Positions 4,491 to 22,308 of a stretch of DNA of 22,339 nt are shown here, piece after piece (positions within the stretch are counted from its first letter, which is position 1; every line of letters starts with the position of its first letter). The stretch covers positions 1 to 22,339 of IMG/VR virus record IMGVR_UViG_3300024518_001214, one strand, 5' to 3'. Source of the stretch: a virus. Both the position numbers and the translations under genes were made by a program. Below the pieces are notes generated by a model. The model was not told the origin of the DNA. It did no database searches and saw nothing but the letters and a program-made list of their open reading frames with translations.

Positions 4491-4833
4491 GGTTGTTGTC
4501 CTCGATCAACAGGGATTCCACCAGATCGACAAGCTGGCACGGCTGCTCCGCCCAGCCTCCAGCGTAGGGCCATGCCACTGGACTGCCGAATAGTCTGCAC
4601 TTGGCGTAGGTGTCGAGCATAGCCCGGTGGGATAGTGAGAGAATGAGAGGGATGGCTGCGCGTTCTACCCAGACGCCCTCGGCGGTGTACTCGGTATTGA
4701 GGTCGCCGTTGCTGTCCAGGTCTACGAGCACTCCCGGGGTTGTCTTGGTAACCTGCATCATCCGTCCCGCGTCGCGCTCCGTTGGTTCGTAGTCGCCCCA
4801 GCCCTCGCGCAAGAGGACCAGAGCGACCCTTAG
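4474..4833 (-). CDS. Tail assembly chaperone, -1 frameshift extension (gpT-like part)
   Basis: This frame has no convincing start of its own; the first candidate is a TTG at 4812. It is open upstream into an A-AAA-AAC heptamer at the end of the preceding gene and lies exactly in the -1 frame. A ribosome slipping there would continue with CTA (Leu) at 4833-4831 and add 119 residues (LRVALVLLREGWGDYEPTERD... to IEDNNRGSNS), giving a fusion of about 240 residues from the ATG at 5195. This matches the gpG/gpGT arrangement of lambda-like tails, where the minor fusion product bridges the tape measure and the tube subunits during assembly and is absent from the virion. Its end overlaps the tape-measure start by 17 nt. 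The frame geometry is seen directly; use of the shift is inferred. Confidence 0.85.
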   Translation of the reverse strand, partial: LRVALVLLREGWGDYEPTERDAGRMMQVTKTTPGVLVDLDSNGDLNTEYTAEGVWVERAAIPLILSLSHRAMLDTYAKCRLFGSPVAWPYAGGWAEQPCQLVDLVESLLIEDNNRGSNS

Positions 4834-4839
4834 TTTTTT
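4792..4839 (-). promoter_or_regulatory. Programmed -1 frameshift signal (slippery heptamer plus stem-loop)
   Basis: On the minus strand the last sense codons of the first chaperone read CTA AAA AAC TAA, so the heptamer A AAA AAC (4839-4833) sits directly before the stop. After TAA and two further bases a potential stem begins: GTCGCT (4827-4822) can pair with GGCGAC (4797-4792). Nested inside, GTCCTC can pair with GAGGGC around the loop TTGCGC. The 5-nt spacer and the heptamer fit the standard -1 frameshift rules, and the downstream ORF is in the -1 frame. Frameshift efficiency cannot be judged from sequence. Confidence 0.85.
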
Positions 4840-5195
4840 AGGTCGTCGTCCTTCCGAGAATTCTGCTTGACGATTTCCATGACCACCTCCAGGAACAAGT
4901 CCTGTAGCCCCGGTGCCTTTAGGAACGCCTCCGCAGTCGTGATCCGCTCGTTGTTCACCTCGAGGTTTTCAATCCCTTGCACCGCTTGCGTGAACAAGCC
5001 CTCGTAGTTGACATCGAACTGGTACCCGCCACCGTTGCTGGCCGACAGTGCCAGGTTGACCGGGTCGATCTTGAGTAGCCTCTGCCGCTCCCCGGTGGTG
5101 AGCTGGCGCAGCTTGATCTTGACCGGCCAGCTCTCTTGGTCGTTGTCCCGGAACTCCGGGATAAACACTGTGTCCCGTTCAACCGTTAGCTTCAT
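4830..5195 (-). CDS. Tail assembly chaperone (gpG-like)
   Basis: The preferred start is ATG at 5195 (MKLTVERDTVFIPEFRDN), preceded by a G-rich Shine-Dalgarno stretch (GGGGG), which gives 121 residues. An in-frame upstream start at 5234 would overlap the tube gene and is less likely. The protein is small and acidic, with a conserved-looking middle (LRQLTTGERQRLLKIDP) and a helical C-terminus ending in a charged RKDDDLKN tail. This size, composition and position between tail-tube and tape-measure genes are typical of gpG-like chaperones, which coat the tape measure and recruit tube subunits. The slippery sequence in its last codons supports the assignment strongly. Sequence similarity within this family is generally weak, so context carries most of the weight. 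Confidence 0.85.
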   Translation of the reverse strand: MKLTVERDTVFIPEFRDNDQESWPVKIKLRQLTTGERQRLLKIDPVNLALSASNGGGYQFDVNYEGLFTQAVQGIENLEVNNERITTAEAFLKAPGLQDLFLEVVMEIVKQNSRKDDDLKN

Positions 5196-5215
5196 GTAGT
5201 CGCCCCCTACAGTGC

Positions 5216-5632
5216 CTACGTAGCCGCTGTCCAACTCAGCGCGCCGTCACCCCGCAGGGTGGCTGACCAGCTGATCTTGTCCTTGACCGGTGCCGAGAAG
5301 GTGTCGGACTCCACGATGGCGTTGCCGTTGTAGAACGCTCCCGCGGTGGAGCTCGACAAGAAAAAGTAGAACGCCAGGTTGGCGAGGGTTGCATTCTCCA
5401 GCTGGTCCCGAATCCGCAGTTGCTCGGTGTCCGTGGAGTCCAGAGTGCCCGCAACGGATGCCGTCCACGACCGAATGGTTGGGTCGTGATCCTCCCAGGT
5501 TGAGCCAAAGGCGGTGATTTCTGCCGTGCCTACCGATCGGCTGAGCGTCCAGGTATCCAGCAGCGCCACCTTGTTTTCCGTTGATCCGGTAACGATCTGT
5601 ACGCTACCGTCCTTGCCCATTACTGCGCCCAT
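5216..5632 (-). CDS. Tail tube protein, second paralogue
   Basis: A start at ATG 5632 (MGAVMGKDGSVQ) overlaps the stop of the upstream paralogue by one base (TAATG), giving 138 residues. A further in-frame TTG at 5647 is possible but less likely. The protein is nearly all beta-rich and shares its core with the preceding gene: over 45 aligned residues from LLDTWT to AGTLDSTD only three conservative changes occur, and both end in ...SAPVKDK.SWSAT.RGDGA. It differs by a longer N-terminal loop (VTGSTENKVA) and a more hydrophobic strand (LAFYFFLSSSTAG). Position between the tail terminator and the chaperones fits the major tail (tube) protein. It could be the main tube subunit or a specialised variant; sequence alone does not say which. 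Confidence 0.8.
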   Translation of the reverse strand: MGAVMGKDGSVQIVTGSTENKVALLDTWTLSRSVGTAEITAFGSTWEDHDPTIRSWTASVAGTLDSTDTEQLRIRDQLENATLANLAFYFFLSSSTAGAFYNGNAIVESDTFSAPVKDKISWSATLRGDGALSWTAAT

Positions 5633-8000: not shown

Positions 8001-9968
8001 TTACCTCACTATACTCTTCCCGCTCACTTTCGTCGTGATCAGGGAAGACCCGCCCACTTTAGTGGTAAGCAGCGACGTGCCATTAATCACTGTTGTGATC
8101 AACGATGTGCCGTTGATCAGATCCAGCACCACCGTTGGCGCAACAGTTGCCGCAGTTCCACTTACCAGAGCCTTGCCGGTGGCGGTGGCGACAACAGTGA
8201 CGGTGGCGACGCTTGTGGATGTTCCCCTAACCAGCGATCGCCCCGTCCCAGCATAGGACAATGTGATAGCAGACCCACCGACGCCCTTGGCCAACAAGGT
8301 GCCATCGGCGGCAAAAGAGAATGCCAGCTCAGCTCCACCGACACCACTCGCGAGCAGGGTACCATCCGCCGCATAGCTAAACGCGACAGTAGTGGTGGCT
8401 GCACCACTGACCAGCGATAAACCATCGCCCGTATAGGAGAAAACCCCCGAAGTCGGCCCCGAAGTGGCGGCAACTCCCTTGAGCAGCGCCTTGCCATTCC
8501 CAAGATACGAAAGGGATACAGTCGCTCCACCAGCCCCTGTGAGCAACGCCTTGCCAGTGCCGCTATAGGAAAAAGAGGCCAGATTGGTGGTTGCGGCGAC
8601 ACCCTTTAATAGCGCCTTGCCAGTACCGGCGACGATAACCGTAACCTGCGAACCGGCCACGCCCTTGGCTATTGCTTTGCCAGTGCCCGCGTAGATACCA
8701 GTAGTCTGCGTACCGGAAATCGCACCCTTAGCAAGCGCCTTCCCTGTGCCAGCGTAGGAGAACGCAACCACAGTGACGGCGGAGCCCTTGGCAAGCGCTT
8801 TACCCGTGCCAGCGTAGGAGAACGCAACCACAGTGACGGCGGAGCCCTTGGCAAGCGCTTTACCCGTACCAGCATAGGAGAACGCAACGGCGGTAGCTGC
8901 AACACCCTTGCCGAGTATCTTGCCGCTACTCTGATAGGTGAACACACCACCAGCAACCGACACCTCATGCGCGCCCATGTCGTATGCCGCATCTCTGGTG
9001 CCATCAAGAATATCTTCGGACGGTATGGTAAGGCCCGCCCCCGTAGATGAGGAATGAGCTTCCTGGGCATCGTTGTCGGTGGCGTTGTCTTGGAGAGTGA
9101 AATCATAGGGTGAGGTGGTGTCGTCGGTGAAGATGACCCAGTCCCCCGCACCCGGACTCGCAGTATCGGTACTGGTTCGGCTTTCGAGCGCACCCACCGC
9201 ACCTGCGTCCTCTGTGCTAATCGAGGTGTCTGAAGCTACGCAGTAGTCCAGGTTTGCTGTCGTCGGATTGCTATAGAAGTTAAAATCGGCATTAGCACCG
9301 CTGTTCATCGCGATGGTATTGAACACAGCCCATACGGCAGAGCCTGTGTTTGACAGGCATCCTCTATCAGCCGCGGCTGCTGCCTCCTGACCACCATACA
9401 TAACCGTACAGGAATTGACATTGAGAGTGGGAGTGCCCGACTGATTGTGAATGCACCCTCTCCCCCAGTTGAAGATGATGCAATTGGTGAAGGTAGCGGT
9501 TACGGACGTTCCGCTGCCTGTGTAACAACCGTCCTGATCAGTGGACGACGCTGTGTTGGCGTGAATGATGAGGTCATTCAGGATGAGACCCGTCGCCGTG
9601 CTGTTAATCCGGACGCCCTCGCTTGAGCTACTTGTTGCATCCTGACGGATAACAAACCCTTCGAGGGTGATGTCGGAATCGTCGCATGTGATAACATGCC
9701 CCGACGCTCCCGCCAATCGGTAGTAAGTGGGCGAAGCTTCGATCTTCCCGGTGTGCTTGGAATCACCTGTCGCGACAATGTTTATGATGACACTTGCCGC
9801 AAACCCGCTGATTGTAAAAGAATTGGCGTCATCTACCGACCAGGTTCCAGTTATGTTGGCGTTCTCAGTATCTCCGGCTCCCGAATTACCATCCCGGTCA
9901 GCCTCCCAGGCAGTCAACGTGGTGAAATCGCCGCCGCTTTGCTGAACAGCAGAATTATTGACCGCCAT
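8001..9968 (-). CDS. Parallel beta-helix fibre/spike-like protein with 13 tandem repeats
   Basis: This 655-residue protein has three parts. Residues 1-342 resemble secreted or phage right-handed beta-helix proteins: an opening GGDFTTLTAWEADRDGN, strand ladders such as ITLEGFVIRQDA and GLILNDLIIHANTAS, and the typical closing motif ILDGTRDAAYDMGAHE. Residues 343-614 are 13 tandem repeats of about 20 residues, consensus FSYAGTGKALAKGxAxxxVA. Residues 615-655 switch to a 10-residue repeat (INGTSLITTV-like) with four copies. It starts directly after the preceding stop (TAAATG). There is no signal peptide. The form suggests an elongated trimeric fibre or spike, attached to head or neck because its gene is in the head block rather than after the tape measure. 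Receptor binding or decoration is inferred; no catalytic residues could be assigned. Confidence 0.75.
   Translation of the reverse strand: MAVNNSAVQQSGGDFTTLTAWEADRDGNSGAGDTENANITGTWSVDDANSFTISGFAASVIINIVATGDSKHTGKIEASPTYYRLAGASGHVITCDDSDITLEGFVIRQDATSSSSEGVRINSTATGLILNDLIIHANTASSTDQDGCYTGSGTSVTATFTNCIIFNWGRGCIHNQSGTPTLNVNSCTVMYGGQEAAAAADRGCLSNTGSAVWAVFNTIAMNSGANADFNFYSNPTTANLDYCVASDTSISTEDAGAVGALESRTSTDTASPGAGDWVIFTDDTTSPYDFTLQDNATDNDAQEAHSSSTGAGLTIPSEDILDGTRDAAYDMGAHEVSVAGGVFTYQSSGKILGKGVAATAVAFSYAGTGKALAKGSAVTVVAFSYAGTGKALAKGSAVTVVAFSYAGTGKALAKGAISGTQTTGIYAGTGKAIAKGVAGSQVTVIVAGTGKALLKGVAATTNLASFSYSGTGKALLTGAGGATVSLSYLGNGKALLKGVAATSGPTSGVFSYTGDGLSLVSGAATTTVAFSYAADGTLLASGVGGAELAFSFAADGTLLAKGVGGSAITLSYAGTGRSLVRGTSTSVATVTVVATATGKALVSGTAATVAPTVVLDLINGTSLITTVINGTSLLTTKVGGSSLITTKVSGKSIVR
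8004..8126 (-). repeat. Short 10-residue repeats at the fibre C-terminus
   Basis: The last 41 codons of the beta-helix protein encode four degenerate units: INGTSLITTV, INGTSLLTTK, VGGSSLITTK and VSGKSIVR. The DNA repeats with a 30-nt period. The period is half that of the upstream 20-residue repeats, and the G-T-S/G-K/S-L core is shared, so both arrays may derive from one strand-turn element. Confidence 0.7.
8127..8942 (-). repeat. Thirteen tandem ~60-nt coding repeats
   Basis: Residues 343-614 of the beta-helix protein are 13 units of 20-24 residues with core F-S-Y-A-G-T-G-K-A-L-x-K-G. The most similar pair, 8761-8820 and 8821-8880, differ at only two of 60 bases, while outer units are strongly diverged. 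The pattern points to repeated unequal exchange or slippage with one recent duplication. Unit lengths remain multiples of three, so the frame is kept. The arrangement is protein-coding; there are no unique spacers as in a CRISPR array. Confidence 0.9.
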
Positions 9969-16796: not shown

Positions 16797-18785
16797 TTAC
16801 GCTGGCACAATTTGACAATCGCACCCTTGATGCAGTGGCGGATGGCGGACGTTCCGGTATGTCCGCATCGTTGCCTGGTCTGCTTGTACTTCGTCCCCGC
16901 CGGGCACAAACTCAGTGCCCACCGGAATTATACGCCCATTCATTTCCTTGCAAAACGGACAGTTATCGCCAAACGCTACCCACCGCACGCTCCGCACCAT
17001 CTGGCTGTCCTGAAATGACACCAGCGTGAAGGCGTTCACTCCACGCAAGGTTTCCTCTCGAGCCATCTTCCCCGGGCGCCGCTCCGTCCACTCGCTAAGC
17101 CGTGTTAACACAGCATCCCGAGGACTGGTGTCGAACTCTTGCGCCCGATCCATAACGGACCGCAGCTGCCCCGTAGACCCCAGGGTGTACCCCGCGATCA
17201 GGTTGTCGAAGTAGTTATCGATGAACCGGGTCAGCTCATCGTCGTTCATCTGGGTGCCAGTGTCGCCAATCAGCATGGCCCGCGCGTTCTGGAATAGCGA
17301 CTGGTACAGTGGACCCGTCCGCTGCCGGATGAACTCCCCGTGCTCTCGGTAGAAGTTGGATAGGAACTGCTCAAAGCTGTTGCGGTCCCGGGTGTCCAGC
17401 ATCTTCCGCGCAGCCTTGGCGATGTCCTGCTCTTCCCGGACCACCACCCGCCGCCATGCGTCCTCGAAGATGTCCACCATGGACAACGCAAATGACCGCC
17501 GTTGGTCTGCCCTCTGCTGGCGCTCCTCCCGGAACGCATCGAAGGGATCTTCATCCTGGTCATCGTTGTCGCCCGGTTGCTGGCCTTCTCCCGGCGCCGC
17601 GGACTCTGCCATGTTCACCGGTTGCCAGTATGTTTCCCCGATACCCTCCGGTAGGGGATTCATGTCCTCGAGCTCTCGGATGTCGTCCGCACTCATCCAG
17701 CCCCAGTTACGTGCCTTGGCGTAATACTCCGCCCGGGACTGTGCATCGCCACGTAGTAGGGCTTGCACGCTGAACTTGAAAAAGAACTCGTCCTGCTCTG
17801 CCTCGCTAAGCAACTGCGAATCTAAAGACTGCTCCCACCGTACCAGCCACGGCATCATCGTGAACGTGATGAACTCCCGGGACTGCTCCTCCACGTTGGT
17901 GAACGTGGCGTGCTCCAGGTCAGCAATAAGGTGTGGCGGGATGTTGTACCAACGCGCCACCTCGCTCACTTGGTACTTGCGCTCCTCGATTAGCTGGGAG
18001 TCCCGTGGGGTGTTAGCTGTGGACTTCCACTCCAGCCCTTCCTCCAACACCGCAACGCCTTGTTTCTTGCCCCACCGGCCTTGCTTGCGTCGCCAGTCGT
18101 CCTTGAGCCGCTGCCGCGCATCGTCGTTGCGTAGTCTGCCTTTCATTTGGAGCACCCCCGAGGGTGCCGCCTCGTTGGCTAAGTAGTCCGAGGCGTACTG
18201 CTGCAATCCAAGGGAAAGCCCGAACGAATCCCGAGCTTGGCTGATGGGATCCTCCCCGGCAAACCCGTTGAACGCGAACCATGACATATGGAACACCTGG
18301 TCTGGGCGAAATTTGCGCATCTGCCCGTCTGGCCGGGTGTAGATGTACACCAGGTTCTTGCCATCTACTTGGATCTCAGTCTGTCCCGCCACCAACGGTA
18401 CCACTGCGATGATTCTGCCCACCCGATCGCGCACGAGCTGGGAGATGTGGTTGCCCCATAGGAGCGTCTGTATCTGGGCGGTTTCCCGCCACTGGTAGGA
18501 TGTCGTGAGTGGATTTGGTTGCTTGCCGATCAGTCGGAACAGTGGATGGTCGCGTGCTTCCTCTTTCCCGCGATCCCCCACCCGGCGGTACAGCTTGAGC
18601 GGCAGAGTGGCAAGGAACTCCGAGATCCGAGTAACCGCGCTCTTGACCGCCATGACTTGGAATGCGTTTTCCTGGTCTACGTGGATGCCAGACGCGGCTT
18701 GATCCCCGGGCCATAGGCTAAGGTTGCCCTCTGCTTGGGTCACCTTCGTTGCACGCTTCCCGAACAGAGACTCCAGAAAGCCCAT
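16797..18785 (-). CDS. Portal protein fused to a MuF-like head morphogenesis domain
   Basis: The start at ATG 18785 (MGFLESLFGKR) overlaps the TerL stop by one base (TAATG). Residues about 1-400 form an HK97-family portal: AVKSAVTRISEFLATLPLKLY, GNHISQLVRDRVGRI, and a C-terminal wing ending near MNPLPEGIGETYWQPVN. A Pro/Asp/Gln-rich linker follows (about 405-435), then a domain ending in a MuF-like signature: C609 and C612 (CPFCKEMNG), and H648, H652, C655, C657 (RHPPLHQGCDC). MuF proteins are minor head proteins, normally separate from the portal, so this gene is a natural portal-MuF fusion of 662 residues. The fusion is seen directly; head ejection or assembly roles of the MuF part are from family knowledge. 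Confidence 0.92.
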   Translation of the reverse strand: MGFLESLFGKRATKVTQAEGNLSLWPGDQAASGIHVDQENAFQVMAVKSAVTRISEFLATLPLKLYRRVGDRGKEEARDHPLFRLIGKQPNPLTTSYQWRETAQIQTLLWGNHISQLVRDRVGRIIAVVPLVAGQTEIQVDGKNLVYIYTRPDGQMRKFRPDQVFHMSWFAFNGFAGEDPISQARDSFGLSLGLQQYASDYLANEAAPSGVLQMKGRLRNDDARQRLKDDWRRKQGRWGKKQGVAVLEEGLEWKSTANTPRDSQLIEERKYQVSEVARWYNIPPHLIADLEHATFTNVEEQSREFITFTMMPWLVRWEQSLDSQLLSEAEQDEFFFKFSVQALLRGDAQSRAEYYAKARNWGWMSADDIRELEDMNPLPEGIGETYWQPVNMAESAAPGEGQQPGDNDDQDEDPFDAFREERQQRADQRRSFALSMVDIFEDAWRRVVVREEQDIAKAARKMLDTRDRNSFEQFLSNFYREHGEFIRQRTGPLYQSLFQNARAMLIGDTGTQMNDDELTRFIDNYFDNLIAGYTLGSTGQLRSVMDRAQEFDTSPRDAVLTRLSEWTERRPGKMAREETLRGVNAFTLVSFQDSQMVRSVRWVAFGDNCPFCKEMNGRIIPVGTEFVPGGDEVQADQATMRTYRNVRHPPLHQGCDCQIVPA

Positions 18786-20407
18786 TATTCACCACCCACT
18801 ATCGACAGTCCACGATTCTCATATATCGACTCACCTTCGCCACGTAGTGACAGCGACAGTGCCATGATCAGCGCCACTATCCCGTCAATCCTTTTGGATG
18901 ACTTCCGCCGGTCTGGCTTAACTGGCTTGATGTTGCCGGCAGCGTCCTGGCGTACCGCCGTGCATTCAGCGTTCCAGTTGAGCACGGGATTGTTGCCGTT
19001 GCGCAGCTTGCGCTCCGCGGTCAAGTCAATCAGTGCCTTGGATGGCTCGGACATGCTGGCCCAACCTTGGCCAAACTGCACCATGGTTATCCCGGTCCGG
19101 TCTTCTATTCGTTCGCTAATATGCCCAGCACCCCACCGGTCGAAAGCAGCTTCTGCTACGTGGAACCGTTCTGCGTCTGCTGCTATGCCGTCCAATACGT
19201 CCTCGTACCTAACGGTTCGTCCTGGTGTCGCTGTGATCAATCCCTGGGCTACCCAGACATCGTACGGGACTCGGTCGCGCCTCACCCGCTCCTGTACGGT
19301 GTCCTCCGGCATCCAGAACCGCGCCAGGACATCGTAACTGCCATCCTCATCCGGGAACACCATCACCCACGCGGTGAGGTCTATACGGGACGACAAGTCC
19401 AGACCAGCATAGCACACCTCGCCTTCGAGGTCGTCTTCGTGCACTTCCCCGGCAGACTGTTCCCAGTCGTAGGTGTCAATCCACCGCTCGACTTGCGCGG
19501 TCCACTGGTCCAGATACAGCCGGCGGAAGGTGTTTTGATACGCCGGGCTTCTCTCGGCTTTGGATGCCTCGGTCCGTAGCTGGTCGATGTTGCGGAAGAT
19601 ACCCAAAGCTGGATTAGCTGCTGCCCATACTTTCTCATCCCGCCAATCAGCATCGCGGTCCGCAGTGAATACCATGGCGTAGTGCGACGGGTCCGACATC
19701 GGATCCTTGATAACGTCCATCGCATACTGATGCTGTTCCCAGCAAATGTGGTCTTCCTCGTACACTCCCGCGGTGGTGATTGCCATGGCCAGCGCTTGCT
19801 CCCGAGCTGCCCCGGTGCCGCTAACCAACGTATCCCACAGTTCCCGATTCTTCTGCGCGTGGAGCTCATCGAATATCAACCCGTGGAGATTGGGTCCGTG
19901 CTTGGATGGCACATCGCTCGAGACTGCGATCATGACCGAGCCAGTCGCCATGTCTACGATACGCTTGCGAGAATCAATCACCTTGAGTCGCGATCGCAAC
20001 AAGTCGCTCTGCAACACCGCGTCCCGCCCATAGCCGTACACGATACCCGCTTGCTCTTTGTCAGACGCTGCCACGTAGACCATGGCCCCGGGCTCATTGT
20101 CCGCCACCAGCAGAAAAAGCCCCACACCGGATGCCAATGGCGATTTCCCGTTCTTCTTGGGGAGCTCCAGGTAAGCACTGCGCACCATTCGGTTGCCAGT
20201 CTTGTCTACCCAGCCGAATACCTCGCTAAGAAACTCCTCTTGGTAGGGGATGAGGGAGAAAGGTTGTCCCGCCCACTTGCCTTGGGAGTGGGTCAGCACC
20301 TTCTCGAAAAAGTTGATGACGTAGTCCGCGTGCGAGTTGCTGAACTGGTAGCGGACGCCGTTGTGGGTGATGCGCTTACGGTTACTTCTTGACGAGGCGA
20401 GGCCCAT
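18785..20407 (-). CDS. Terminase large subunit
   Basis: ATG 20407 abuts the methyltransferase stop (TAGATG). The 540-residue protein has the two expected parts. The ATPase has a Walker A-like ELPKKNGKS at 81-89 and Walker B LIFDE at 177-181, preceded by SKHGPNLHG, plus an ITTAG motif III near 210-214. The nuclease begins with GLDLSSRIDLTA (Asp337) and ends near DGIVALIMAL (Asp508), providing metal-binding aspartates. This is a Terminase_1/HK97-type large subunit that cuts and pumps phage DNA into the prohead through the portal encoded next. Length is normal and no interruption is seen. Separation from the small subunit by a methyltransferase is unusual but not unique. Confidence 0.96.
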   Translation of the reverse strand: MGLASSRSNRKRITHNGVRYQFSNSHADYVINFFEKVLTHSQGKWAGQPFSLIPYQEEFLSEVFGWVDKTGNRMVRSAYLELPKKNGKSPLASGVGLFLLVADNEPGAMVYVAASDKEQAGIVYGYGRDAVLQSDLLRSRLKVIDSRKRIVDMATGSVMIAVSSDVPSKHGPNLHGLIFDELHAQKNRELWDTLVSGTGAAREQALAMAITTAGVYEEDHICWEQHQYAMDVIKDPMSDPSHYAMVFTADRDADWRDEKVWAAANPALGIFRNIDQLRTEASKAERSPAYQNTFRRLYLDQWTAQVERWIDTYDWEQSAGEVHEDDLEGEVCYAGLDLSSRIDLTAWVMVFPDEDGSYDVLARFWMPEDTVQERVRRDRVPYDVWVAQGLITATPGRTVRYEDVLDGIAADAERFHVAEAAFDRWGAGHISERIEDRTGITMVQFGQGWASMSEPSKALIDLTAERKLRNGNNPVLNWNAECTAVRQDAAGNIKPVKPDRRKSSKRIDGIVALIMALSLSLRGEGESIYENRGLSIVGGE

Positions 20408-21874
20408 CTACATCACCAGCTGCATCTGCAGCGCCTCTATGCGTCGCTCAGCCAGCGCCGCGTATTCAGGGTTAAGCTCGCAGCCGATGAACTCACGCCC
20501 CTCCTCGTGGGCCACCTGGCCGGTGGTCCCGCTGCCCAAGAATGGATCGAGAACCGTCCCGCCTACTGGGGAACCAGCCCGGATGCACGGTCGCACCAGC
20601 GCTGTCGGGAAGGTGGCGAAGTGTGCCTCGGGGTAGGGCTCGGTGGCGATGGTCCATACGTCGCGCTTGTTTCGGCCGGCAGGATGCCCCGGTATTTCCT
20701 TTGTCATATCGGCTCGCGGGCGATGAAAGTCAGCGTGTGTGCCCACTTCGCCCTTGCCAATCTTGCCGGGACCATTCGGTCCCCAATGATTCTCCCCATG
20801 CGGCTCACGTACAGCATCGCTGTCGTAGAAATAAGTCGCCCGCTTGCTCAGCATGAACAGGTGCTCGTGGCTCTTCGTCGGCCGGTCAGTCACCGACTCG
20901 GGCATGGGGTTCGGCTTGGCCCAGATGATATCGCTGCGTAGATACCAGCCGTCGAGCCGTAGCGCCGTGGCCAGCATCTGCGGCTGATCGATCAGATCCT
21001 TCTGTTTGAACCCTCGGGACGCTATGGTACAATACGCTTGTGCCAAGGCGAAAGGTTCCCTGTCCTCTATGCGGTCAACCAAAGTCCGCAGCTGCGAAAG
21101 CATGTCGGCGGTGCTCTCAGCCGTATGAGCGGACACCCGCGCATCGGCAAGAGATGAGCGAGCGCTTGACTGATCAACCGAAGCCTCATCTACAAGGACG
21201 AAAGCGCCCGGAACACGCGGCGTGGATGCGTCGCTACTGGACAGACGAGCGGCGGGCGACGATGCGGGGGCGTCAGCTTGATCCGAACGCCCGTTACCAT
21301 GGTCTGTCGTCTCGCCAGGCTGCGGCGCTTGTTCGCTCCGTTGGCCACTGCCAGGAGTGTCGCCATGATGGCTCGGTGAGTCGCCTTGGCGTTCATCATG
21401 TGGATCGGGACAAGCACAATCAGAGCCCCGAGAATCTGCGCGTTCTATGCCATCGCTGCCATATGACGGACCATCGGCTCGCTGGCGACTTTCACCGCCA
21501 GTAGCGTAAGCGCTACCCATATTCAGCCACAGCGTGCCGTCGTCCCGCAGCACCCGGCGCACCTCGCGGAACACGCCCACCATGTTGGCGATGTACTCGT
21601 CGATGGTCGGCTCCAGGCCGAGTTGGTTGTCCACGCGGCGAGCACCGCACTTGCCGCATACGGCTCGAAATGGCTGTGCCATCTTGCCGTTGTTGCCTTT
21701 GTTCTGCGTGGAGCCAGTCGCTGGTAGCGCATGGTCGCACTCCGCGTCGCCGCCTTCCCACTCAGCCGTGCCGTAGTCGCGCAAACCCCAGTAGGGCGGG
21801 CTCGTCACCACGCAGTGCGCAACGCCGTCGGGCAGCTCGCGTAGCTTCTCGCGCACGTCGCCTACCAGGATCAT
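20408..21874 (-). CDS. DNA methyltransferase (beta class) with a long internal insert
   Basis: ATG 21874 (MILVGDVREKLRELPDGV) overlaps the TerS stop as ATGA; the frame is open further to 22150 but only inside TerS. The 488-residue product has motif IV TSPPYW at 24-29, a CGKCG zinc-like knuckle, LWLNMGSAYA at about 116-124, then resumes GFKQKDLIDQP at 288 and WYLRSDIIWAKPNPMPESVT, and ends with motif I, DPFLGSGTTGQ. Motif IV before motif I marks the beta order, typical for N4-cytosine or N6-adenine enzymes; the SPPY form suggests N4-cytosine. Between residues about 125 and 288 lies a low-complexity Ser/Asp/Ala/Arg-rich stretch which is antisense to an HNH gene. Without it the length would be about 325, the family norm. 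Function in packaging or anti-restriction is inferred. Confidence 0.9.
   Translation of the reverse strand: MILVGDVREKLRELPDGVAHCVVTSPPYWGLRDYGTAEWEGGDAECDHALPATGSTQNKGNNGKMAQPFRAVCGKCGARRVDNQLGLEPTIDEYIANMVGVFREVRRVLRDDGTLWLNMGSAYATGGESRQRADGPSYGSDGIERADSRGSDCACPDPHDERQGDSPSHHGDTPGSGQRSEQAPQPGETTDHGNGRSDQADAPASSPAARLSSSDASTPRVPGAFVLVDEASVDQSSARSSLADARVSAHTAESTADMLSQLRTLVDRIEDREPFALAQAYCTIASRGFKQKDLIDQPQMLATALRLDGWYLRSDIIWAKPNPMPESVTDRPTKSHEHLFMLSKRATYFYDSDAVREPHGENHWGPNGPGKIGKGEVGTHADFHRPRADMTKEIPGHPAGRNKRDVWTIATEPYPEAHFATFPTALVRPCIRAGSPVGGTVLDPFLGSGTTGQVAHEEGREFIGCELNPEYAALAERRIEALQMQLVM
21006..21033 (+). promoter_or_regulatory. Promoter-like sequence for the antisense HNH gene
   Basis: TTGAAC (21006-21011) and TACAAT (21028-21033) are separated by 16 bp, and TG one base before the -10 box makes it an extended -10 element. 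The predicted transcript would begin within a few bases of the GTG at 21040, so the mRNA would be leaderless or nearly so. The -35 half lies in methyltransferase codons (GFKQ). The match is good but unproven. Confidence 0.5.
21040..21504 (+). CDS. HNH endonuclease, antisense inside the methyltransferase gene
   Basis: This is the only plus-strand gene. GTG 21040 is the only near start after an in-frame TGA, giving 154 residues. It has an N-terminal zinc knuckle (C8, C11, C22, C25: CPLC...CRRC), a basic middle resembling NUMOD-like DNA-binding elements (KPHLQGRKRPEHAAWMRRYW, 48-67), and a C-terminal zinc-bound HNH nuclease: C104/C107, catalytic-type HH at 119-120, N132 in ENLRVLC, C137/C140 and H141. 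This is the architecture of free-standing phage homing endonucleases. The ORF occupies almost the entire insert in the methyltransferase, so no intron or intein accompanies it. An alternative role is as a packaging-associated HNH, as some terminases have, given its location between TerS and TerL. No ribosome site is seen. Confidence 0.88.
   Translation: MPRRKVPCPLCGQPKSAAAKACRRCSQPYERTPAHRQEMSERLTDQPKPHLQGRKRPEHAAWMRRYWTDERRATMRGRQLDPNARYHGLSSRQAAALVRSVGHCQECRHDGSVSRLGVHHVDRDKHNQSPENLRVLCHRCHMTDHRLAGDFHRQ
21501..21516. repeat. Perfect inverted repeat at the HNH 3' end
   Basis: GTAGCG, a four-base TAAG loop and CGCTAC form a perfect 6-bp hairpin that includes the HNH stop codon. There is no following T-run, so it is not a standard rho-independent terminator. 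It coincides with the likely insert junction, in methyltransferase codons SAYAT, so it may mark the target site or cap the HNH transcript. Confidence 0.5.
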
Positions 21875-22308
21875 TTCTTGACTAACCTCGGCCCAGACAG
21901 CAGCTCTTCCAGCGGGGTCGCAGTGTCGCCACCCGGGGTTGAGTCGATCTTGGTTCTGCTGGCCGGGGTCATGCCAAACTCGCACAGCATCCGATAGTAC
22001 TTGTCCCAGTGGCGCAACATCGGTGTCACACTTCCCGCCAACCGTGCCTCCTCGTACAGTGCGTAAAAAGTACACAGTGCCCGGAACGCCTCGAAGTCCG
22101 CTTCGGTGAGCAGCCCCAGCTTGTACAACATGGGGCCAATCTCCTCCCACTTTTCCTGGGCCATGGCTGGGATATCCCCAGGGGCTTTTCGATACGCCCG
22201 GGTTGGCTTGGCCTCGGACTTGCGGATGCGTTTCTTGTGGTCTTCGCCCTCGAGCTTTTTGAGGGATGTGGGCTTGGGTGGCCGACCGGCTCTATTGGCA
22301 GCTGGCAT
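21871..22308 (-). CDS. Terminase small subunit, P27 family
   Basis: ATG 22308 (MPAANRAGRPPKPTSLKKLEG) encodes 145 residues, a usual length. The P27-type signatures are present: GRPPKPTSLKKLEG at 8-21, a Pro-containing linker, the helix block AQEKWEEIGPMLYKLGLLTEAD at about 50-71, and EFGMTPASRTKI at 110-121. The small subunit recognises phage DNA and loads the large subunit for packaging. It is the first gene of the visible operon, and its stop overlaps the methyltransferase start as ATGA. No good Shine-Dalgarno site precedes the ATG; instead a CATAAT box lies 7 nt upstream. Confidence 0.92.
   Translation of the reverse strand: MPAANRAGRPPKPTSLKKLEGEDHKKRIRKSEAKPTRAYRKAPGDIPAMAQEKWEEIGPMLYKLGLLTEADFEAFRALCTFYALYEEARLAGSVTPMLRHWDKYYRMLCEFGMTPASRTKIDSTPGGDTATPLEELLSGPRLVKK

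Follow-up and report, generated by a model that had tools for sequence, protein, structure and literature searches.

An antisense HNH homing-type endonuclease gene nested in the open reading frame of phage N6/N4 DNA methyltransferases

Computation shows that an HNH endonuclease gene lies nested and antisense within phage DNA methyltransferase genes, that the methyltransferase frame avoids stop codons across the insert, that the insert is patchily distributed, that sequence identity forms a gradient at its junction, and that promoter-like sequences are enriched ahead of the HNH gene. The HNH gene is very probably a mobile, non-splicing homing gene that has its own promoter and through which the methyltransferase is read.

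An antisense HNH gene in a methyltransferase loop

The window, which is the whole stretch of DNA that was analyzed, is a complete 22,339-base IMG/VR virus record. It encodes an N6/N4 DNA methyltransferase of 488 aa (positions 20408 to 21874, minus strand) in a single open frame that runs across the insert. The motif order is that of the beta type, with SPPY near the N terminus and DPFLGSG near the C terminus, and the protein matches Pfam N6_N4_Mtase (E = 7.3e-47) and phrog_67 (E = 8e-75). The HNH homing-type endonuclease gene (21040 to 21504, plus strand; GTG start, 154 codons) is located wholly within this frame, where the insert is held by an enlarged loop of methyltransferase residues 124 to 289 (21008 to 21505, minus strand) between an N-M-G-S-A-Y motif and K-Q-K-D. 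The two genes are in relative frame 1, and the HNH wobble base is opposite methyltransferase codon position 2, as the original prediction had stated. The HNH protein consists of an N-terminal zinc ribbon or ribbon-like region, a NUMOD3-like segment, and a C-terminal HNH domain with two CxxC pairs; by itself it matches Pfam HNH with an E value of 5e-4, slightly short of the curated cutoff. Elsewhere in the window, a 655-residue open reading frame (8001 to 9968, minus strand) contains a Y-x-G-T-G-K-A-L-x-K-G-like unit about 12 times and is perhaps a virion decoration or fiber protein.

Relatives were collected with the methyltransferase as the query, which returned five loci with a homologous nested HNH (L002 to L006), and with HNH alignments in searches blind to the methyltransferase frame, which returned 28 and 45 loci. 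The locus searches were seeded by conserved peptide patterns and so favor conserved members. Two loci whose HNH and methyltransferase matches were identical to those of L082 (L083 and L084) were dropped before counting, and merging of repeats left 33 distinct relatives whose alignment extends past the HNH core, or 34 loci with the window. The HNH gene is antisense and at the same position between two methyltransferase halves in all 33 relatives (34/34 with the window). An antisense HNH gene nested in an uninterrupted methyltransferase frame, as had been proposed from the window alone, was confirmed there and in 31 of the 33 relatives, which share the same phase. In the two exceptions, L099 and L103, the methyltransferase halves are in different frames and the gene is split. 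Three loci (L138, L087, and L085) have additional interruptions elsewhere in the methyltransferase.

All 21 aligned HNH proteins match Pfam HNH, and H119, H120, N132, H141, H145, and four cysteines are invariant among them. NUMOD3 was matched in 12 of the 21 (E values up to 0.1, best 4e-9), with the window member not among the 12. The N-terminal ribbon is missing from 4 of the 21 (L092, L096, L098, and L103), a count that depends on the chosen starts. On the other strand, N6_N4_Mtase was recognized in 57/57 methyltransferases scanned, 27 of them nested; alignment A4 drew on 57 of 73 listed references. By pattern, 30 of 32 nested methyltransferases have SPPY in that open frame, and 27 of 32 have a motif-I-like sequence.

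The HNH family is known solely from metagenomic virus contigs. A tblastn search of 50,697 named phage records with the window HNH returned nothing at 1e-5, and the same type of search with the L090 HNH returned 28 weak records at 0.01. A search of genome contigs with HNH alignment A1 found none, while alignment A3 found two distant HNHs that had no antisense methyltransferase match. Distant HNHs matching by the HNH core alone (6 rows in the first HNH search and 12 in the second, for which only antisense methyltransferase matches were kept) had no match to a window methyltransferase half within 3 kb. A Foldseek search with the HNH model had no match within an E value of 0.001; PacI came closest, at 0.25.

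The loop between the N-x-G-x-S-Y and K-x-K-D motifs spans 8 to 67 aa in 46 parsed insert-free loci compared to 111 to 219 residues in the 31 nested loops measured, all but one of which have at least 143. This agrees with the original proposal that the HNH gene invaded a variable loop. In the AlphaFold model of the window methyltransferase, 200 of 488 residues, on both sides of the insert, have a pLDDT of at least 90, and residues 149 to 255 fall below 50, a low value that may partly reflect an alignment unable to cover the loop. When the loop composition was tested, the GRAVY Stouffer z was −6.7, or −2.5 when conditioned on no stops. With the same conditioning, z was −11.9 for aromatic residues, −5.6 for proline, +5.1 for acidic residues, and +2.7 for cysteine. 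The low aromatic value is at least partly TpA avoidance, so no constraint on the loop beyond stop avoidance is claimed; the combined count of V, I, L, M, and F is almost fixed by the synonymous shuffle and is uninformative.

A spliced element was considered and rejected. There is scant room for a ribozyme or intein, as was originally argued, since the HNH ORF occupies almost the entire insert. Against a group I intron, the window and eight related loci gave no Rfam match at the gathering score. An intein is disfavored by the low pLDDT (<50) of the insert in the host frame and by the lack of a splicing-domain family among the Pfam and PHROGs matches of the 488-residue protein.

Other insertions were observed in these methyltransferases. 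L010 (3992 to 5590) and L013 have a sense-strand insertion that keeps the frame and is located elsewhere, between A-L-Q-A and G-W-Y-L-R-S; it was read as LAGLIDADG-like and is assigned by PHROGs to HNH endonucleases (phrog_5046, E = 2e-14). In L085, the methyltransferase is also interrupted by a second, sense-strand HNH-like ORF (4693 to 5277, minus strand), located upstream of the antisense ORF. In L016 (1151 to 1786, minus strand) and L035, the methyltransferase frame is broken, and an HNH-like ORF from another family lies antisense between the fragments, at a site other than that of the present insert.

Stop codons in the methyltransferase frame

Whether a stop arises in the methyltransferase frame hinges on the HNH wobble base, so synonymous codon choice in the HNH gene can avoid stops. 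The null expectation was obtained by shuffling synonymous codons within each HNH gene, which keeps its protein and codon usage. Over the 32 open loci, the methyltransferase frame contained 0 stops compared to 114.8 expected. A 19-locus version that drew on locus codon usage in place of in-gene usage gave 52.8 expected stops and agrees. The offset-2 antisense frame contained 276 stops compared to 237 expected and so shows no avoidance; the offset-0 frame contained 97 and is unaffected by this shuffle.

For the window by itself, 1.8 to 2.2 stops are expected, and the probability of none is 0.07 to 0.12 depending on the null, so that its open frame is near chance. It could be argued from this that the open frame is a product of chance or composition, including base composition and TpA avoidance, and that the methyltransferase is simply disrupted. 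Composition does contribute. Because TpA is generally avoided, tyrosine codons were compared in the same TpA context, and they occur 92 times compared to 177.5 expected (a ratio of 0.52), which lowers the expectation to ∼65 stops. For TGA, 0 were observed compared to 11.0 expected, while the other TGN codons together were not depleted (285 versus 270). TGG alone is low (20 versus 37.8), and scaling TGA by this deficit gives ∼60 expected stops and a P value of about 10^-26. The joint P value, which is multiplied over loci and thus assumes independence, changes from a naive 10^-66 to about 10^-28 after the tyrosine control.

The zero stops stand against ∼60 to 65 expected even after these corrections, and neither the lack of avoidance in the offset-2 frame nor the five loci that each have 5 to 10 expected stops and zero present (L086, L132, L135, L137, and L140) fits a chance explanation. 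Inserts with stops or frameshifts, which the original prediction held should be as frequent as open ones if the frame were chance, are in the minority: 32 of 34 loci are open, and 2 are broken. Those two, the split loci L099 and L103, contain 7 stops compared to 5.4 expected, near expectation, so that in this small sample avoidance is absent and stops return once read-through of the methyltransferase is lost. The pooled test refutes chance unless the 32 loci are near-copies, and the closest pair of HNH proteins among them is at a distance of 0.20. We therefore regard chance as extremely unlikely. The results support the conclusion that frame compatibility is kept by selection, as had been suspected from the window, and they suggest that one DNA stretch makes two proteins, one per strand. 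Read-through of a mobile antisense HNH gene is well supported by computation.

Selection on the frame could also act on something other than methyltransferase activity. The window methyltransferase gene overlaps the terminase small subunit gene (21871 to 22308, minus strand; phrog_83, E = 1.3e-21) by 4 nt at its start, and its stop abuts the start of the terminase large subunit gene (18785 to 20407, minus strand; phrog_9, E = 2e-152). With such neighbors, an insert might be kept readable only to avoid polarity, in which an early stop would reduce the translation or transcription of downstream operon genes. However, a large subunit related to that of the window was found only in L140 and a related small subunit in none of the 33 other loci, as judged with one query pair over a few kilobases around each locus, and the near absence of related terminase neighbors makes the contexts look diverse. 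In addition, the methyltransferase domain is recognized in every nested member scanned (27/27), and polarity alone would not call for the retention, in split-gene members, of both fragments and their conserved tails. We consider polarity an improbable explanation and favor selection for a methyltransferase that is read through the insert.

The tails of the split genes were observed in L099, L103, L085, L016, and L110 (ShiLan gp65/gp66), which share a pair of peptides. The N-terminal fragment ends with an LRxDLT-like peptide ahead of its stop, and the C-terminal fragment contributes an IPxxLxxYF-like peptide, which in ShiLan belongs to a small ORF, gp66, that precedes the methylase fragment. 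The pair recurs at several different split points and, with its synonymous changes, is conserved at the protein level. A DNA pattern for the tail gave one match, which reads as another protein. In the four metagenomic split loci, an HNH ORF of either orientation is found between the fragments. The two tails may be a portable docking pair.

Spread and promoter of the HNH gene

In a tree of methyltransferases (29 nested, 46 insert free), the two classes interleave, with 17 label changes, at least 7 of which are forced by well-supported branches; support for many branches is weak, and bootstrapping had yet to settle. The tree was built without L085, L127, and L138, in which the motif was not found, and L010 and L013, which carry the other insertion, were counted as insert free. 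Insert-free sequences were taken from the 80 best methyltransferase matches, out of at least 595, with 29 of 75 candidates left unparsed by motif. Shuffled labels required 23.3 changes, and only 2 to 3 of 500 shuffles were as low as 17. The nested label is therefore somewhat clustered, and the distribution is partly inherited. Distances between HNH proteins were weakly correlated with those between methyltransferase proteins (r = 0.15 and 0.16), compared to r = 0.43 between the N and C halves of the methyltransferase.

Pairs of loci with close HNH proteins are also more similar next to the insert. On its promoter side, identity over 40 columns was 0.087 higher for close than for distant pairs (0/5,000 permutations), although the first ∼10 of these columns are the tail of the insert and the excess may partly be a shared promoter constraint. 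Farther from the insert, the difference was 0.001 (P = 0.45). These values compare 37 close pairs (HNH distance of <0.40) with 393 distant pairs (≥0.45), which are not independent. When profiled, the other side of the insert showed no clear trend; its first block had an excess of 0.05. The junction gradient is as expected from homing with co-conversion of flanks.

The original prediction had further raised the idea that the HNH and methyltransferase form a pair resembling a restriction-modification system, with the methyltransferase protecting the HNH site. The two are physically linked in 34/34 distinct loci, as such a pair would be. The same linkage arises if homing targets the methyltransferase gene itself, and NUMOD3 (in 12/21 members), the patchy distribution, and the junction gradient all fit homing, so that this part of the prediction fared poorly, and we judge the pair very unlikely. 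What stands of the original interpretation is the invasion of a loop, the selected frame, and the lack of room for a ribozyme or intein. It included neither a promoter-like site of the HNH gene's own nor the sense-strand precedent in phage ShiLan.

In the window, a sigma-70-like promoter, TTGAAC-16-TACAAT with TG ahead of the −10 box (21006 to 21033, plus strand), is predicted by sequence match and ends 6 nt ahead of the HNH GTG, a spacing that would allow a leaderless transcript. Its −35 box lies across methyltransferase codons G288, F289, and K290, the last of which opens the conserved K-x-K-D, making the promoter part host and part insert. Promoter scores of at least 9 (of 13) were obtained for 16 of 32 nested loci but for none of 42 insert-free loci in the matching 75-nt stretch. 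Mean scores were 8.75 for nested loci (7.19 for shuffles) and 6.62 for insert-free loci (7.03 for shuffles); taken singly, only 13 of the 32 nested loci exceed their own shuffles at P values of <0.05. The best −10 box ends 5 to 6 nt before the start codon, a leaderless-like placement, in 18/32 nested loci. By scan, the others have a Shine-Dalgarno-like stretch (10/32) or neither feature (4/32).

Known systems and the proposed mechanism

Homing endonucleases can reside in phage genes without splicing. The mobE insertion splits nrdA of phage Aeh1, and the host gene there yields two chains, whereas here read-through seems to be the rule, with L099 and L103 as apparently split exceptions. The closest known system is the ShiLan-domain HNH of mycobacteriophages, a hidden, out-of-frame HNH in DNA methylases for which the authors detected no intron or intein (PMC11855218 and PMC9957025). 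ShiLan and the present family have in common an HNH gene within a phage DNA methylase, a frame that is open through the insert, an insert predicted to loop out, and a disjunct distribution that suggests horizontal spread. Antisense orientation is what differs. In ShiLan, the HNH is encoded by the sense strand of gp65 (L110; Pfam HNH_3, E = 9e-8), and in Pacc40 a 159-codon sense-strand ORF fits the published 160-aa product and has no Pfam match here, whereas the present HNH is antisense in 34/34 loci. The proteins themselves are only distantly similar: gp65 resembles the window methyltransferase only over residues 5 to 59 (E = 0.001), and a single comparison of the HNHs matched 28 HNH-core residues only (43%, E = 0.001). 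The ShiLan paper leaves open how its hidden HNH is expressed without splicing, and the words "antisense" and "promoter" are absent from its text (PMC11855218). A search of the PubMed Central literature, which covers few preprints and subscription papers, found no antisense version of the ShiLan type.

Antisense genes within other genes have precedents. Homing endonuclease genes that are likewise antisense to the host gene occur in nuclear group I introns (PMC9548176); they are in an intron of ribosomal DNA, unlike the present HNH, which lies within the coding, apparently translated sequence of a protein gene. The pop gene embedded in Escherichia coli ompA is, like the HNH gene, a complete antisense protein gene inside a coding gene with its own sigma-70 promoter (PMC7103648). 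It was shown experimentally, in contrast to the computational case made here, and is not a mobile endonuclease.

We propose that the HNH gene enters phage N4/N6 DNA methyltransferase genes at a single site and in antisense orientation and that its product would cleave insert-free alleles. The gene would be transcribed from its own promoter, with the −35 box lying over conserved methyltransferase codons and the −10 box brought by the insert, and its message could be leaderless in many members. The methyltransferase, expressed from the other strand, would be translated through the insert as a long, predicted-disordered loop with the catalytic core intact, and the long form would be active. The element would persist because its reverse strand lacks any stop in that frame, and dual coding would thereby do for it what splicing does for introns and inteins. 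It seems rather likely that this is a third mode of residence inside a coding gene, beside the intron and the intein, which combines a translatable antisense element, a disordered host loop, and a half-host promoter and in which the frame-broken members are split methyltransferases with conserved tails.

Long antisense coding overlaps are rarely accepted because the evidence for translation in two frames is usually weak. The 32 diverged loci and two split-gene controls form a natural experiment, in which the signal for reading of the antisense frame is strong. For the antisense variant, the promoter of its own and the often leaderless placement offer an answer to the question of expression that was raised by ShiLan.
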